From Bacteroidota bacterium (GTDB lineage: Bacteria; Bacteroidota; Bacteroidia; UKL13-3): a DNA stretch of 36,102 bases. The stretch's first letter is position 1, and each line of letters begins with the position of its first letter. The notes beneath the pieces were generated by a model. The model was given only the letters and a program-made list of their open reading frames with translations, did no database searches and was not told the DNA's origin. The stretch is taken from assembly GCA_947485745.1 (NCBI GenBank), contig CANKQY010000018.1, positions 1 to 36,102 of the forward strand, written 5' to 3'. This document shows positions 17,077-23,702 of the stretch, piece after piece. The position numbers were made by a program, and so were the translations under genes.

Positions 17077-18507
17077 ATGAAGATTCGCAATCTGTTCCTT
17101 AAAATTACATTCCTCGTTACAGTTTTGTTTTCTTTCAACCAAAGCCTATCGGCTCAAACTGTTGAAGAAGGCAAAACTCTTTTTAACGCCAATTGTACTG
17201 CCTGTCATGCAATAAAAGACAAAGTAGTTGGCCCAGCATTAAAAGATGTAGATAAGCGCAGAAAAGAAGCCTGGCTTATTAAATGGATTAAAAACTCTCA
17301 GGCCATGGTGAAAAGTGGTGATCCTGAAGCAATTCAAGTATACAAAGAAAACAACGAGAGTATCATGACTTCATTTGAATCTTTAACTGATACTCAAATT
17401 AAATCAATACTAGCTTATGTAAAAGCAGAAAGCGAAGCACCGGCAGCAGTTCCTCAAACAGCAGGAACATCACCCGCAGCTGGCAATAATGCTGCTGCAA
17501 ACAATAACCAGGAAACAAACATCAATTGGATGTTGATGATTATTGGTATTTTATTAATTGTGATAATTTCTCAGGTTTTCAAAATTCTCAGTAAAATAGG
17601 AGAAATTCAAGGTAAACCAGTTGTAAATTGGAATAAAACCAATGGTTTGTTGATGATGGCATTTTTGATAATAGGCTTAATTGCTACAGTTTGGGAATTT
17701 GTTGTTCATGGTCCACTAACCGTCTTTGAAGCAGGCCCAGCCTCTGAACATGGTGTAGAATACGACAATATGTTCATGATAACATTGGTTTTAACCGGAA
17801 TTGTATTTGTTATTACCCAAGTATTATTATTTTGGTATGGTTTTAAATACAAAGCAGATGGTAAACGTAAAGCTTTGTATTATCCTGATAACCACAAAAT
17901 AGAATTACTTTGGACAATTATTCCTGCTATTGTGTTAACAGTTTTGGTTGTTCGTGGTTTAATTACTTGGACCCACATGACCAGCCATAATGATCCAAAG
18001 GCACGTAAAATCGAGCTTTTTGCTTACCAATTTGGTTGGAATGCCCGCTATGCTGGCACAGATAACAAATTAGGCGCACATAATTTCCGCCAAGTAGGTG
18101 TGATGAATGCCTTAGGTATTGATACCAATGACGTGAATGCCTATGACGATGTTGTTACCAACGAATTGCATCTAGAGGTAAATCAACCAGTGGATTTGGC
18201 GTTCCGTGCTAAAGATGTTATTCACAGTGCATTGTTACCTCACTTCCGTGTTCAAATGAACGTGGTACCCGGTTTACCTACTAAGTTTTCTTTCACGCCT
18301 ACTGTTACAACAGCAGAAATGAGAACTAAAATGAATAAACCTGGCTTTGATTACATTTTATTATGTAATAAAATATGCGGTGGTGCCCATTACAGGATGA
18401 AAATGAAGGTGGTAATTGATACCAAAGAAGAATACCAAAAATGGATCAATAGCCAGAATGTTCTGGTAGCCAATAAGGTAAAAAACAAAACTGTTGCATT
18501 AAAATAA
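17077..18507 (+). CDS. coxB: Cytochrome c oxidase subunit II with N-terminal cytochrome c domain
   Basis: A 476-residue subunit that passes electrons from cytochrome c to CoxA. After a signal peptide (residues 1-26), residues 28-117 form a class I cytochrome c: heme-binding CTACH (40-44), a likely axial Met97 in ESIMTSF and a C-terminal helix ending ILAYVK. A Pro/Ala/Asn-rich linker (about 120-147) leads to a first membrane helix (150-171), then the usual Bacteroidetes CoxB part with further helices. The CuA site reads DVIHS (His383), CNKICGGAHYRM (Cys430, Cys434, His438, Met441). Lys432 stands where many relatives have Glu. The extra cytochrome c at the N-terminus is unusual, since caa3 oxidases carry it at the C-terminus. 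First gene of the operon; a TATATTGC box lies at 17026-17033. Confidence 0.93.
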   Translation: MKIRNLFLKITFLVTVLFSFNQSLSAQTVEEGKTLFNANCTACHAIKDKVVGPALKDVDKRRKEAWLIKWIKNSQAMVKSGDPEAIQVYKENNESIMTSFESLTDTQIKSILAYVKAESEAPAAVPQTAGTSPAAGNNAAANNNQETNINWMLMIIGILLIVIISQVFKILSKIGEIQGKPVVNWNKTNGLLMMAFLIIGLIATVWEFVVHGPLTVFEAGPASEHGVEYDNMFMITLVLTGIVFVITQVLLFWYGFKYKADGKRKALYYPDNHKIELLWTIIPAIVLTVLVVRGLITWTHMTSHNDPKARKIELFAYQFGWNARYAGTDNKLGAHNFRQVGVMNALGIDTNDVNAYDDVVTNELHLEVNQPVDLAFRAKDVIHSALLPHFRVQMNVVPGLPTKFSFTPTVTTAEMRTKMNKPGFDYILLCNKICGGAHYRMKMKVVIDTKEEYQKWINSQNVLVANKVKNKTVALK

Positions 18508-18542: not shown

Positions 18543-20381
18543 ATGAGCGATCACAATATTGACAACCACCACGAGGAACATGAACACCATAAAGACTCCT
18601 TCTTGTCGAAGTATGTCTTTAGCATGGACCACAAAATGATTGCAAGACAATTTTTAATTACTGGTATCATCATGGGTACCATAGGAATGTTAATGTCTAT
18701 GATATTCCGTTTACAATTAGCCTATCCAGACATGACCTTCCCTTTCTTAGAAGGCATTATAGGACATTGGGGAAAAGATGGCAAGCTTGATCCAAATTTT
18801 TACTTGGCTTTAATTACGATACATGGCACTATCATGGTATTTTATGTATTAACAGCAGGCTTAAGTGGAACCTTTTCAAATCTATTAATTCCTCTTCAAG
18901 TTGGAGCAAGAGATATGGCTTCTCCTTTTATGAACATGTTGTCTTATTGGTTTTTCTTTGCCTCATCATGTGTCTTGTTATTCTCATTATTTGTGGATGG
19001 TGGTCCGGCCTCTGCAGGTTGGACGGTATATCCGCCGCTTTCGGCCTTGCCTAAAGCAATACCGGGTTCAGGTACAGGTATGACCTTGTGGTTAGTTGCG
19101 ATGATTTTATTTATTGCTTCTGCACTTCTAGGAGGTATCAATTATATTGCTACTATTTTAAATATGAGAACAAAAGGTATGAAAATGACTCGTTTACCTT
19201 TAACCATATGGGCATTTTTAGTTACCGCAATATTGGGTTTATTATCATTTCCGGTATTATTAGGAGGATCATTACTTTTGGTATTCGACCGTAGTTTTGG
19301 TACGTCCTTCTATTTATCTGAAATAGTTGCTGAGTTTGCAGGTGGCATTGAGCGTACCGGTGGTTCACCTATTTTGTTCCAACATTTATTTTGGTTCTTA
19401 GGACACCCTGAGGTTTATATCATTTTATTACCAGCCTTGGGAATTACCTCTGAGGTAATTGCTACCAATGCTCGTAAACCAATTTTCGGATACCGTGCAA
19501 TGATTGGTTCAATCTTAGCCATTGGAGTGCTATCATTTATTGTTTGGGGTCACCACATGTTTATAACCGGTATGAACCCATTTTTAGGATCAGTATTTAT
19601 GTTGGGTACATTGATTATTGCAGTGCCATCAGCGGTTAAAACTTTTAATTACTTGGCTACATTATGGCAAGGAAATTTGAAATTAACCCCAGCCATGATG
19701 TTTGCAATTGGCTTGGTATCTTTCTTTATTTCTGGTGGTTTAACAGGTATTTATTTAGGAAATGCAGCGCTAGACATCAATTTACATGATACCTATTTTG
19801 TGGTAGCCCACTTCCATTTGGTAATGGGTAGTGCCGCAATATTTGGTATGATGGCGGGTATTTACCATTGGTATCCAAAATTATTTGGTAGAATGATGAA
19901 TGAAACTGCAGGCCATATACACTTTTGGCTTACCATCATTTCTGCCTATTGTGTATTCTTCCCTATGCACTTTTTGGGATTGGCTGGTGTGCCACGCAGA
20001 TACTACGCAAATACTGCTTACGATCAATTTGATGTGTTTGTAGATATGAACCAATTTATTACCATAGCAGCATTATTAGGAGGTTTGGCTCAATTAATTT
20101 TCTTAGTTAATTTCTTCTATAATATATTTAAAGGCAAGCGTTCTCCACAAAATCCGTGGGATTCGAATACCCTTGAGTGGACTGCTCCAGTTGAACATTT
20201 CCATGGTAACTGGATTGGTGAAATACCACATGTTTACCGTTGGGCTTATGACTATAGTAAACCAGGAGCTGAGCAAGATTTCATTCCTCAAAATGTTCCG
20301 GATGAAGGACAAACTGATTGCATGGAAGAAGCTGTAGGATTGCCTGCAATAGGAAACCATGCGGCATCAGCAGAAGCTTAA
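18543..20381 (+). CDS. coxA: Cytochrome c oxidase subunit I
   Basis: The 612-residue catalytic subunit, with about 12 membrane helices, holding low-spin heme a and the heme a3-CuB centre that reduces oxygen. Visible ligands: IHGTIMVFY (low-spin heme His), FLGHPEVYI (CuB His, the cross-linked Tyr, and the Glu of the proton path), GHHMFITGM (two CuB His) and VVAHFHLVMG (His ligands of heme a3 and heme a). The Glu in GHPEVY places it in the A1 type. The N-terminus is His/Glu-rich (NHHEEHEHH), a possible metal-binding tail. It starts 35 bases after coxB with no terminator between. Confidence 0.97.
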   Translation: MSDHNIDNHHEEHEHHKDSFLSKYVFSMDHKMIARQFLITGIIMGTIGMLMSMIFRLQLAYPDMTFPFLEGIIGHWGKDGKLDPNFYLALITIHGTIMVFYVLTAGLSGTFSNLLIPLQVGARDMASPFMNMLSYWFFFASSCVLLFSLFVDGGPASAGWTVYPPLSALPKAIPGSGTGMTLWLVAMILFIASALLGGINYIATILNMRTKGMKMTRLPLTIWAFLVTAILGLLSFPVLLGGSLLLVFDRSFGTSFYLSEIVAEFAGGIERTGGSPILFQHLFWFLGHPEVYIILLPALGITSEVIATNARKPIFGYRAMIGSILAIGVLSFIVWGHHMFITGMNPFLGSVFMLGTLIIAVPSAVKTFNYLATLWQGNLKLTPAMMFAIGLVSFFISGGLTGIYLGNAALDINLHDTYFVVAHFHLVMGSAAIFGMMAGIYHWYPKLFGRMMNETAGHIHFWLTIISAYCVFFPMHFLGLAGVPRRYYANTAYDQFDVFVDMNQFITIAALLGGLAQLIFLVNFFYNIFKGKRSPQNPWDSNTLEWTAPVEHFHGNWIGEIPHVYRWAYDYSKPGAEQDFIPQNVPDEGQTDCMEEAVGLPAIGNHAASAEA

Positions 20382-20449: not shown

Positions 20450-21421
20450 GTGATTGATATAAAAAAACAAAATAGATTTAGACGCTTTGGCATATTAACC
20501 ATAGCGGCAGTGTTCTTTCTCATATTTATAGGTGGATTGGTGCGCAGCACAGGAAGTGGCATGGGATGCCCAGATTGGCCAAAGTGTTTTGGACAATTTA
20601 TCCCTCCTACTGATGTGAGCGAACTGCCAGCAGATTATAAAACAAAATTTGCAGTTGTTGGTAAGGAGATAGCTGATTTTGACGCCTTTAAAACCTGGAC
20701 AGAATACTATAACAGGTTGGTAGGAGTTGTAATTGGTTTATTGATTTTATTAACTGTAGTATTTGCAATTCCATACCTAAGGAGTAACAACAAAAAGATA
20801 TTCTGGCTAAGTTTTTTAGCCTTCATCTTAGTTGGCATTCAAGGATGGATAGGTGCAAAAGTTGTATCAAGTGATTTGGCAACATACATGGTGAGCATTC
20901 ATATGCTTATTGCTTTATTGATTGTTGCTTTGTTGGTTTATACAATTACAGCTAGCCAAGATTTTATAATTGAGCAGCAGTTTAATTATGCACCATTGAA
21001 GAGTTTTATTTTTCTTAGCTTGATCATTTCATTGGTTCAAACCGTAAGTGGAACACAAGTAAGGGAAGCCGTGGATGAAGTAGCGCAAAGGTTTGACAAC
21101 CGTTGGTTATGGGCAGAAGAGTTGGGACTGATATTTAAAGCACATAGAAGCTGGAGTATATTAAACTTAGGTTTGAGTGTATTTATAATGATTCAATTCA
21201 AAAAATTGTTTGAACGCAATTCAATTCTATACAAAGCCTCATTGGCATTGGTATTATTGATGAGTACTCAAGCATTAACAGGAGCGGTTTTGGCTAATTT
21301 AGGTTTTCCGAAACAGTTTCAAAGTATTCACCTAACATTGGGAAGTTTAACAGCAGGCATGCAAATTTTTATTGCAATTTTGGTGTTAACAAAAACAAAA
21401 ATTAAAAAAGAAGGCGTTTAA
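20450..21421 (+). CDS. ctaA: Heme A synthase (COX15/CtaA)
   Basis: A 323-residue membrane enzyme that oxidises heme O to heme A for the oxidase. The opening RRFGILTIAAVFFLIFIGGL, VRSTGSGMGCPDWPKCFGQF and the following TEYYNRLVGVVIGL are diagnostic; a second half repeats the fold with QTVSGTQVREAVD and KAHRSWSILNLGLS. About eight helices are visible, with His residues at the heme positions. The start is GTG (20450), directly after the AT-rich inverted repeat. It ends three bases before ctaB. Confidence 0.93.
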   Translation: MIDIKKQNRFRRFGILTIAAVFFLIFIGGLVRSTGSGMGCPDWPKCFGQFIPPTDVSELPADYKTKFAVVGKEIADFDAFKTWTEYYNRLVGVVIGLLILLTVVFAIPYLRSNNKKIFWLSFLAFILVGIQGWIGAKVVSSDLATYMVSIHMLIALLIVALLVYTITASQDFIIEQQFNYAPLKSFIFLSLIISLVQTVSGTQVREAVDEVAQRFDNRWLWAEELGLIFKAHRSWSILNLGLSVFIMIQFKKLFERNSILYKASLALVLLMSTQALTGAVLANLGFPKQFQSIHLTLGSLTAGMQIFIAILVLTKTKIKKEGV

Positions 21422-21424
21422 AAC

Positions 21425-22333
21425 GTGGAAATAAATACGATAAATAACAATGAAACTATTGCGCAGGTAAGTTACCTCAGGGCAAAGGTTAGCGACTATA
21501 ACCAATTGGTTAAGTTTCGCTTGACTTTCTTGGTGGTATTTTCATCAGTGGTAACATTTTTAACTGCTAGTGCAGGGGCCATCAATTGGTTCAATGCTGC
21601 TATGCTTGCCTTGGGAGGATTTTTTGTAACAGGAGCTGCCAATGGCATTAACCAGGTTATAGAAAAGGATTTTGATAAACTCATGTTGCGCACAGCCAAT
21701 CGACCGGTTGCAACCAATAGAATGAGTGTTACCGAGGCTTCCATTGTTTGCACCCTTATGGGAATTTTGGGAGTATTTATTATTAGTTACTATTTGAACC
21801 CACTATCTGGCTGGTTGGCATTAGGCGCCTTGATGAGTTATGCATTTATCTATACTCCTCTTAAAAGAATTTCTCCCGTATCAGTATTTGTCGGTGCATT
21901 TCCTGGGGCTATTCCAACATTGTTGGGTTGGGTTGCAGTATCAGGAACCATAAACATGCCAGCAATTATATTATTTGGGGTTCAATTTTTTTGGCAGTTC
22001 CCTCACTTTTGGAGCATAGCTTGGATATTAGATGATGATTATAAAAGAGCAGGTTTTAAGATGCTTCCATCTACACCAGGTAGAGATAAAGGTACCGCAT
22101 TTCAGGCCTTAACATTTAGTTTAGTTCTAATACCAATTGGTATGTTGCCTTATCAATATGGTATAAGTGGCGTTCCATCTGCAGTGATTGGTGCATTGGG
22201 AGGATTAATGCTTAGCTATTATTCTTACAAACTATTTAGGAGTTGCGAAATGGCAGATGCCAAGAAATTAATGTTTGCCTCATTTATCTACCTCCCATTG
22301 GTTCAGTTAGCTTATTTATTAGATAAAATATAA
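21425..22333 (+). CDS. ctaB: Protoheme IX farnesyltransferase (heme O synthase)
   Basis: A 302-residue UbiA-type prenyltransferase that adds a farnesyl group to heme B to make heme O, the substrate of CtaA. The prenyl-diphosphate site reads NGINQVIEKDFDKLMLRTAN (about residues 76-95), and the second loop has QFFWQFPHFWSIAWILDDDY with the conserved Asp residues. About eight to nine helices. The GTG start leaves a three-base gap after ctaA, so coupled translation is likely. Length normal. Confidence 0.95.
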   Translation: MEINTINNNETIAQVSYLRAKVSDYNQLVKFRLTFLVVFSSVVTFLTASAGAINWFNAAMLALGGFFVTGAANGINQVIEKDFDKLMLRTANRPVATNRMSVTEASIVCTLMGILGVFIISYYLNPLSGWLALGALMSYAFIYTPLKRISPVSVFVGAFPGAIPTLLGWVAVSGTINMPAIILFGVQFFWQFPHFWSIAWILDDDYKRAGFKMLPSTPGRDKGTAFQALTFSLVLIPIGMLPYQYGISGVPSAVIGALGGLMLSYYSYKLFRSCEMADAKKLMFASFIYLPLVQLAYLLDKI

Positions 22334-22334
22334 C

Positions 22335-22916
22335 ATGCAAAGTTCAATTGTACAAAGTAGCGAAGAAGCCAATTATGTAATTAACCCAAAGAAATTTGTA
22401 CTTTGGTTACTAATTGTTGCCAGCTTAATGTTGTTTGCTGGTTTTACCAGTGCCTATATTGTTAGAAGAGGTGAAGGGAACTGGGAGATTTTTAATCTAC
22501 CCTCTATGTTTGCTTGGAATACCTTGATGATTATTCTTTCTTCGGTATTTATACAACTAAGTTATAGTGCTGCAAAGAAAAATAATTTTGCTATCCTTAA
22601 ATCATTTTTGACCCTAGCCTTTGTGTTGGGAGTTGGTTTTTGTTTTGGACAGTGGTATGCATGGAAGCAATTAATTGCAGACAATGTGTTCTTTGCCTTT
22701 TCTAACCCATCCAATTCATTTGTATATGTAATTTCGGGTGTTCATTTATTTCACGTAATATGTGGAGCCTTGTTTATTTTCATCATGGTCATTAATTCAT
22801 TCCTAAATAAAATTCACCAAAACGCACTTTTGTATTTAAACATGTGTATTACCTATTGGCATTTTATTGGGATATTATGGATTTACTTATACCTATTCCT
22901 TTACCTTTATAGATAA
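22335..22916 (+). CDS. Heme-copper oxidase subunit III family protein (short form)
   Basis: A 193-residue membrane protein of the CoxC/subunit III superfamily with five predicted helices. Supporting pattern: LMLFAGFTSAYIVRRGEGNW in the first helix region, GQWYAWKQLI and VSGVHLFHVICGALF-like VISGVHLFHVICG, ending in YWHFIGILWIYLY, the usual subunit III C-terminus. It starts one base after ctaB. A second, longer subunit III gene follows; Bacteroidota oxidase clusters commonly have both. Which one is the true structural subunit cannot be told from sequence. Confidence 0.85.
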   Translation: MQSSIVQSSEEANYVINPKKFVLWLLIVASLMLFAGFTSAYIVRRGEGNWEIFNLPSMFAWNTLMIILSSVFIQLSYSAAKKNNFAILKSFLTLAFVLGVGFCFGQWYAWKQLIADNVFFAFSNPSNSFVYVISGVHLFHVICGALFIFIMVINSFLNKIHQNALLYLNMCITYWHFIGILWIYLYLFLYLYR

Positions 22917-22946: not shown

Positions 22947-23702
22947 ATGGCTACAAACACTTTAAGCACCGAGAAAAAGTTTAACTGGGGTGGCGGCAAA
23001 TCACCATTTAGCGTGAGCTACGGAAAGTTAATGATGTGGATCTTCCTACTTTCTGATGCCTTCACCTTTTCATCCTTGCTGATTGCTTACGGATTTATTC
23101 GTTACAGCTTTCAATCGCCAATTCACAATTTGGTGGTAAAACCATTTGATCATTTATCACATGATTTTGTGCAAGAAATGGTTGAAAAAACAAAGTACTT
23201 TGTACAAGATCATTGGCCTTCTCCAGAATTGGTGTTTAACCATTTCCCTTTTATTCATGGAATGCATTTACCTTTGTTTTTTGTAAGTTTAATGACTTTC
23301 ATTCTCATCTTAAGTTCCGTTACTATGGTGTTGGCTGTTGAAGCTGGGCACCGCAATGCAAAAAGCGAAGTTTCTAAATATATGTTAATGACCATTATTG
23401 GAGGGGCTATGTTCTTAGGTTGCCAAGCTTGGGAATGGACAACCTTTATTGGCGAAGGAGCGCGATTGTTTGGTAACCCATACGGACCACGTTCGTTTGC
23501 AGCACTGTTTTTTATTGTAACTGGTTTTCATGGCTTCCACGTTTTTTCTGGAGTGGTGTTAAATGTTATTATATATATCAATGTATTGAAAGGCACCTAT
23601 GAAAAAAGAGGTCATTATGAAATGGTTGAAAAAGTTGGTTTATACTGGCACTTTGTAGATTTAGTTTGGGTATTTGTATTTACCTTTTTCTACCTTATTT
23701 AA
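22947..23702 (+). CDS. coxC: Cytochrome c oxidase subunit III
   Basis: A 251-residue subunit III protein, the longer of the pair. It has GKLMMWIFLLSDAFTFSSLL (first helix), CQAWEWTTFI, FIVTGFHGFHVFSGVVLN with the conserved His pair, and the C-terminal GLYWHFVDLVWVFVFTFFYL. A soluble loop of about 50 residues (residues 50-100) separates the first two helices. It follows the short form by 30 bases. Structural role in the oxidase is well supported by family and context. Confidence 0.9.
   Translation: MATNTLSTEKKFNWGGGKSPFSVSYGKLMMWIFLLSDAFTFSSLLIAYGFIRYSFQSPIHNLVVKPFDHLSHDFVQEMVEKTKYFVQDHWPSPELVFNHFPFIHGMHLPLFFVSLMTFILILSSVTMVLAVEAGHRNAKSEVSKYMLMTIIGGAMFLGCQAWEWTTFIGEGARLFGNPYGPRSFAALFFIVTGFHGFHVFSGVVLNVIIYINVLKGTYEKRGHYEMVEKVGLYWHFVDLVWVFVFTFFYLI

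Follow-up and report, generated by a model that had tools for sequence, protein, structure and literature searches.

An ActA-like cytochrome c module at the N-terminus of oxidase subunit II in a minority of Bacteroidia families

In Flavobacterium johnsoniae, the ActA protein of alternative complex III (ACIII) carries a membrane-anchored mobile domain with a sixth heme, for which a role as electron carrier to cytochrome aa3 has been proposed. Deletion of actA abolished aa3 activity and deletion of actE caused no impairment; the sixth heme is presumed, and no more than that, to be the electron path to the oxidase (PMC8552683). According to a second report, R. marinus has a five-heme ActA and a caa3 oxidase whose subunit IIc bears a cytochrome c domain; of the additional such domain on F. 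johnsoniae ActA, its authors write that it 'appears to functionally replace' the R. marinus one (PMC5928083). Described here is an ActA-type module on the N-terminus of the oxidase subunit II, CoxB. A literature search, with preprints and most subscription papers outside its range, found no N-terminal cytochrome c on CoxB among its listed results.

The coxB gene described here lies in a 36,102-nucleotide stretch of Bacteroidota DNA (the window), which belongs to a draft genome of 139 contigs (G000) with one CoxB. The features of the gene and of the oxidase genes downstream are listed in Table 1.

Table 1. Positions of coxB, its parts and the adjoining oxidase genes in the window.
Feature	Position	Strand	Basis
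coxB, cytochrome c oxidase subunit II with N-terminal cytochrome c (476 aa)	17077..18507	+	ORF, Pfam
Signal peptide, aa 1-27	17077..17157	+	extent judged from sequence by eye
Monoheme cytochrome c module, aa 28-119, homologue of ActA N-terminal module	17158..17433	+	PDB match, Pfam, AlphaFold2
Predicted heme c site CTACH, aa 40-44 (C40, C43, H44)	17194..17208	+	sequence
Likely axial Met97, aligned with Met of ActA modules	17365..17367	+	alignment
Disordered linker rich in Ala/Asn/Pro/Ser, aa 120-149	17434..17523	+	pLDDT, dN/dS
TM0, first membrane helix, aa 150-177, native to CoxB	17524..17607	+	AlphaFold2, module-free CoxBs
Second membrane helix, aa 185-215	17629..17721	+	AlphaFold2
COX2-type membrane hairpin, aa 224-302	17746..17982	+	Pfam, AlphaFold2
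CuA domain, aa 309-460	18001..18456	+	Pfam, AlphaFold2, fold search
CuA ligand His383	18223..18225	+	sequence
CuA motif C430-NKI-C434-GGA-H438-YR-M441	18364..18399	+	sequence
coxA, oxidase subunit I	18543..20381	+	Pfam
ctaA/COX15-type heme A synthase	20450..21421	+	Pfam
ctaB heme O synthase	21425..22333	+	Pfam, NCBIfam
COX3-like protein 1	22335..22916	+	Pfam
COX3-like protein 2	22947..23702	+	Pfam

The protein belongs to the heme-copper oxidase subunits II of the CuA type, as it has the COX2 membrane and periplasmic domains, the CuA ligands and an adjoining coxA. Pfam searches detected Cytochrom_C at residues 29-116 (44.2 bits; cut-off 21.3), COX2_TM (PF02790) at 230-291 (35.6 bits; cut-off 22.8) and COX2 (PF00116) at 360-443, the last with 22.1 bits barely above its cut-off of 22. 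The score with the NCBIfam CoxB equivalog TIGR02866 is 109.8 and thus below the cut-off of 147.7; the CuA ligands are nevertheless complete, with H383, C430, C434, H438 and M441 as the usual set of two Cys, two His and one Met. The CuA loop reads CNKIC (18364-18378) and has Lys432 and no Glu between the two Cys; a Glu between these Cys is the usual Mg site residue, and it is not deemed essential for membership in subunit II. In relatives the loop reads CAKIC (G725, G535, G518) and CNQIC or CNQLC (G516, G469, G543). Only one CxxCH is present in the protein, which has no ActA-type pentaheme core; Met97 sits in the sequence IMTSF. A C-terminal cytochrome c as in caa3 subunit IIc is absent, the chain ending 35 residues past Met441.

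An AlphaFold2 model (38 aligned sequences, mean pLDDT 77, pTM 0.60) showed a folded N-terminal domain, four long helices (143-178, 185-215, 224-260 and 272-302) and the CuA beta domain at the C-terminal side. Because the number of helices is even, the heme domain and CuA would lie on the same, periplasmic side of the membrane. A fold search returned, among the matches listed, oxidase subunit II only. The sequence-only reading, made before this analysis, had recognised a signal peptide, the CTACH motif, Met97, a linker and a CuA subunit II; sequence, Pfam and AlphaFold2 bear this out. The N-terminal position of the heme c domain and the flexibility of the linker, which it had also claimed, agree with the Pfam match at 29-116 and with a pLDDT below 50 at residues 123-143.

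A search of the PDB with the whole protein revealed ActA of F. johnsoniae ACIII (6btm_A) as the best match, with 108 bits and an E value of 4.6e-30 and with CoxB residues 30-182 aligned to ActA 54-204. Homology, the CxxCH motif and the axial Met of the N-terminal sixth-heme module of ActA are all found in CoxB, and judged by its sequence the N-terminal domain is homologous to this module. Its description in the sequence-only reading, as the domain of a caa3 oxidase 'at the wrong end', misses this identity: the same module is present on both ActA and CoxB of the organism. A displaced C-terminal caa3 domain was ruled out, as the closest solved relative is ActA. Subunit IIc of the Thermus thermophilus caa3 (PDB 2YEV) likewise combines CuA with one fused cytochrome c, and the two proteins align with 68 bits from the helix and CuA parts; its fusion, however, is C-terminal, and its cytochrome c part gives a local match of only 5 bits to the window CoxB. 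The R. marinus ACIII-caa3 pair resembles our system in having a cytochrome c fused to subunit II, with one extra heme per pair, and differs in the place of the domain, which is presumably C-terminal, after CuA; the module of the window CoxB lies ahead of the membrane helices and resembles that of ActA. F. johnsoniae ActA (PDB 6BTM) shares with CoxB the whole order of a monoheme module with CxxCH and axial Met, a flexible linker and then a membrane helix, as well as the proposed partner, cytochrome aa3. There, however, the module sits on the donor, whereas the organism of the window has a copy on CoxB and some lineages have it on CoxB and not on ActA.

Past about residue 145 the ActA match may reflect helix composition, since CoxBs without the module share TM0. 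In these unfused CoxBs of the family of the window (f1), the signal peptide is followed by a short spacer and then by the same first helix; module and linker of the fused proteins are thus placed between the signal peptide and a helix native to CoxB. That TM0 was brought in together with the module is unsupported, the helix being the same in unfused CoxBs. The distance from the axial Met to the first helix has a median of 54 residues in both proteins, with a range of 46-98 in CoxB (65 of 66 measured; the 98 comes from f104, with an uncertain helix assignment) and of 44-62 in ActA (n=69).

The genome of the window encodes its own ACIII. The act operon, a run of six genes resembling actABCDEF, is located on another contig (C44), so the sequence-only reading was right that ACIII is absent from the window. 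By Pfam, the run comprises a cytochrome c plus multiheme cytochrome (ActA), a molybdopterin/FeS protein (ActB), an NrfD protein (ActC), ActD and a one-heme cytochrome (ActE); the sixth gene, which has no Pfam hit, is called ActF from its place and size. ActA, the first gene of the run, encodes 429 aa with six CxxCH motifs, and its module is 54% identical to CoxB residues 9-176. A simple move of the module from ActA to CoxB in this genome was therefore ruled out, since both proteins carry it. The cytochrome b family PF00032 of bc1 complexes had no match in this genome nor in 62 other genomes of f1, and one weak match barely above the cut-off in a further one (G410). Together with the act operon this supports ACIII as the likely electron source, as had been proposed from the sequence.

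To what extent the fusion occurs in other genomes was analysed in several samples. A phylum sample of 392 genomes gave 185 matches, and among the matches listed only that of the window genome was full-length. In G212, the match spans two separate genes: a membrane-anchored cytochrome c is encoded directly upstream of coxB, and the window protein aligns across both genes, with the difference that there is no covalent tether to CoxB. In other Bacteroidota lineages, a separate cytochrome c gene was seen beside coxB at L064 (6124-6700, with a membrane helix), L249, L253, L254 and L256. Within f1, 63 of 64 genomes match; where both proteins are readable, the module is on both in 34 genomes (including G393, which has no heme motif, and G403, with CoxB split over two contigs), on ActA only in 15 and on CoxB only in four. 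The CoxB module is retained in seven genera of f1. All 19 genomes of the genus of the window (g1) have the module region on CoxB (two split over contigs, one heme-less), and the full-length fusion recurs in Bacteroidetes bacterium UKL13-3, whose genome is closed (G453; single contig, 3,236,529 bases). An assembly artefact or chimeric MAG, which the 139-contig draft state of the window genome might have suggested, we count as refuted by these genomes.

A sample of 396 genomes of the class Bacteroidia revealed 373 matches, at least 42 with the module on CoxB. The fused families are f1, f72, f73, f89, f99, f101, f103, f104 and f105, with one genome of f75 in addition. Many of the Bacteroidia with the module on the oxidase come from fresh water. 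The N-terminal fusion is thus a minority architecture, found in nine families and one genome of a tenth within the class; a standard place in most Bacteroidota CoxBs, which the sequence-only reading had named as refuting its proposal, was not found. As a comparison panel we took 64 genomes representing 59 families, picked beforehand as unfused or of unknown fusion state. ActA was detected at E 1e-25 in 62 of these, all with the module span (in G476 via an ORF joining both parts). In the 60 panel genomes with ActA and a listed CoxB match, none of the listed CoxB matches starts before query residue 118, and the long-frame CoxBs of the 16 panel genomes that were read have no CxxCH.

Long CoxBs of family f6 were considered as fused and ruled out, as they have no CxxCH and their C-terminal tail is OmpA-like. 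In these proteins (L242-L246; G037, G064, G158, G162 and G178) the C-terminal extension resembles, by eye, an OmpA peptidoglycan-binding domain, by which the oxidase subunit is perhaps anchored to the cell wall. G475, a highly reduced genome of 0.5 Mb (family f79), has an ActA with the module span and CoxB within 8 kb.

The location of the module on the two partners was scored in 147 genomes, the panel by match span and the remaining genomes by CxxCH count. The module is on ActA only in 80 (15 of f1, 2 of f99, 60 of the panel and 3 further outgroups), on both proteins in 46 (including one genome with a decayed CoxB module), on CoxB only in 21 and on neither in none. The CoxB-only genomes belong to genus g180 of f1 (4), f72 (3), genus g271 of f99 (3), f101 (10) and f104 (1); their ActAs are without the module and retain five hemes, and a five-heme ActA is also part of the R. 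marinus pair. Excluded from the 147 are the second f104 genome (G613), whose fragmented CoxB includes a piece of the module, G442, where a contig end truncates CoxB and which had earlier been tallied as unfused, G429 and G434, where ActA is present and was not extracted, and genomes with one protein read.

Loss of the ActA module occurred in five of the nine fused families versus none of the 55 unfused panel families (Fisher p 1.7e-5, which ignores phylogeny); these counts are not tree-corrected and include only 4-5 independent ActA losses. On a joint core tree of 71 genomes, in which fused ones are over-represented, five changes are required for ActA loss, four of them forced by well-supported branches, and six for CoxB fusion; an independent-pairs test of the reciprocity had no power (median p 1). 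In the genus of the window the ActA copy is retained alongside the CoxB copy, which argues against a simple swap from ActA to CoxB in this genus.

Homology, architecture, distribution, selection, reciprocity with ActA and gene neighbourhood together make it quite probable that the module is a tethered one-heme shuttle between ACIII and the oxidase, which can be attached to ActA, to CoxB or to both. For the CoxB module, heme attachment, electron path and swinging are what we infer. Electrons from menaquinol would pass via ActB and the pentaheme wire of ActA, whether ActE takes part or not, and on to the heme of the module, which would then swing on its linker of roughly 30 residues to CuA. The copy on CoxB would be the oxidase's own pick-up arm once coxB had left the act operon, and the organism of the window would have two tethers, acting in parallel or in series. 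The placement of the module across relatives suggests an electron-carrying arm attachable to either partner, and for the question of the route from ACIII to the oxidase, relatives with the module on the oxidase, on both partners or in decay act as natural experiments.

An unlikely alternative is that the module serves, as in caa3 oxidases, as a general entry port for electrons from ActE or from a periplasmic cytochrome c that is soluble or lipid-anchored, with no special relation to ActA. A C-terminal cytochrome c on subunit II is described in this way, next to ActE, for the R. marinus caa3 (PMC5928083), and stand-alone cytochrome c genes adjoin coxB in G212, G043, G324, G192 and G377, which are other Bacteroidota. 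The domain, however, is specifically of the ActA type, none of the 147 genomes is without a module on both partners, and in several families the CoxB module is closest to the ActA of its own group.

The CoxB module is under strong purifying selection and the linker is not: 10 of 12 live pairs give a module dN/dS of 0-0.08 (two saturated), and 9 of 12 family pairs a linker value of 0.17-0.51, one further CoxB pair being not computable. One genome of the genus of the window, G393 (L068), resembles a natural knock-out: its CoxB frame is intact, CxxCH and Met are lost from the module, dN/dS of the module against G400 is 0.42, and its ActA keeps six hemes. A heme module is missing from CoxB in genera g183, g186 and g189, the last of which retains only an apparent helix remnant. 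Given these losses, the CoxB copy is at least sometimes dispensable where ActA keeps the module. One might then regard it as a duplicate of the ActA module that has no distinct role and is decaying, to which the heme-less copy of G393, the remnant of g189 and the nesting of unfused clades among fused ones would all conform. We hold this to be very improbable in view of the low dN/dS in the other pairs, the seven f1 genera that kept the module, and g180, f72, g271 of f99, f101 and f104, where the CoxB module is the sole copy found.

Trees of the modules, built on 97-98 columns, bear on the origin of the CoxB copies. A first tree including the decayed copy of G393 was distorted by its long branch, so that the core CoxB modules did not form one group, and it was rebuilt without this copy. 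In the f1 tree a single group (31 rows, support 96/90) unites the CoxB modules from six genera. A single origin of all 38 f1 CoxB modules was rejected (p-AU 0.0083), as was one origin of the f1 core and g187 (p-AU 0.0226) and, in a class tree with 23 chosen genomes for f1, of the f1 core with f99/f105 (p-AU 4.3e-5); these one-clade tests were chosen after inspection of earlier trees. The class tree of 87 modules requires 13 changes between ActA and CoxB, at least six of them on well-supported branches. CoxB modules of f105, f99 genera g250/g236, f103, f73 and three of four of f89 are closer to the ActA of their own group than to CoxB modules of other groups. The CoxB module of f99 g271 is similarly close to g250/g236 CoxB and to ActA, and those of g180, f72 and f101 have no close partner; an own-group ActA module is not clearly the nearest one for g271, g187, g180, f72 or f101. 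The CoxB modules of g180 and f101 group together on the class tree (99/96), and the ActA losses of the two may for this reason be one event.

These trees call for several exchanges of the module between ActA and CoxB, and both recurrent copying and gene conversion would fit. It is well possible, though we lean against it, that one ancient fusion was homogenised with ActA by gene conversion and that no recurrent transfers took place, which would be compatible with the shuttle function. A likeness of CoxB modules to the ActA module of their own genome would also follow from conversion, and the fused families cluster partly on the core tree. One origin is rejected by the tests above (p-AU 0.0083, and 4.3e-5 for the f1 core with f99/f105), though conversion gives the same signal; the unfused clades within f1 and f99 demand several losses under this reading.

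Fused coxB genes are located apart from the act operon. Of 60 panel genomes, 46 have coxB within 12 kb of actA; the count is 0 of 67 for fused genomes and 0 of 20 for unfused f1 and f99 genomes, the latter two sets being mostly drafts with the genes on different contigs, where contig breaks could explain the counts. In the closed UKL13-3 genome actA and coxB are 366 kb apart. Where at least 900 bases precede coxB, actE or actF is present upstream at 0 of 86 fused loci versus 48 of 84 unfused ones (some genomes counted twice); the gene before coxB in the window encodes WD40 repeats and is not actF. Unfused f1 loci are likewise without act genes upstream of coxB, so departure of coxB from the act operon accompanies the fusion and is insufficient for it. 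Extending the shuttle reading, we tentatively suggest that the mobile heme is a transferable part which was copied repeatedly from ActA to CoxB and which at least one partner must carry. In species with both copies, such as that of the window, the two tethered hemes might pass electrons to each other and so link two complexes whose genes no longer form one unit and which may have ceased to assemble as one.

Two further observations concern individual CoxB groups. The CoxBs of f101 and f89 (L273-L278, L282, L284, L286, L288, L325-L328) are 549-598 aa long; their matches break near query residues 350-353, and they have roughly 65-90 additional residues inside the CuA domain. Among the listed f75 genomes, G625 (L259, L324) has the only fused CoxB. 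Its CoxB module is nearest to the module of g182, a genus of f1, and its ActA module is not, which may reflect a horizontally acquired cox operon or a binning error.
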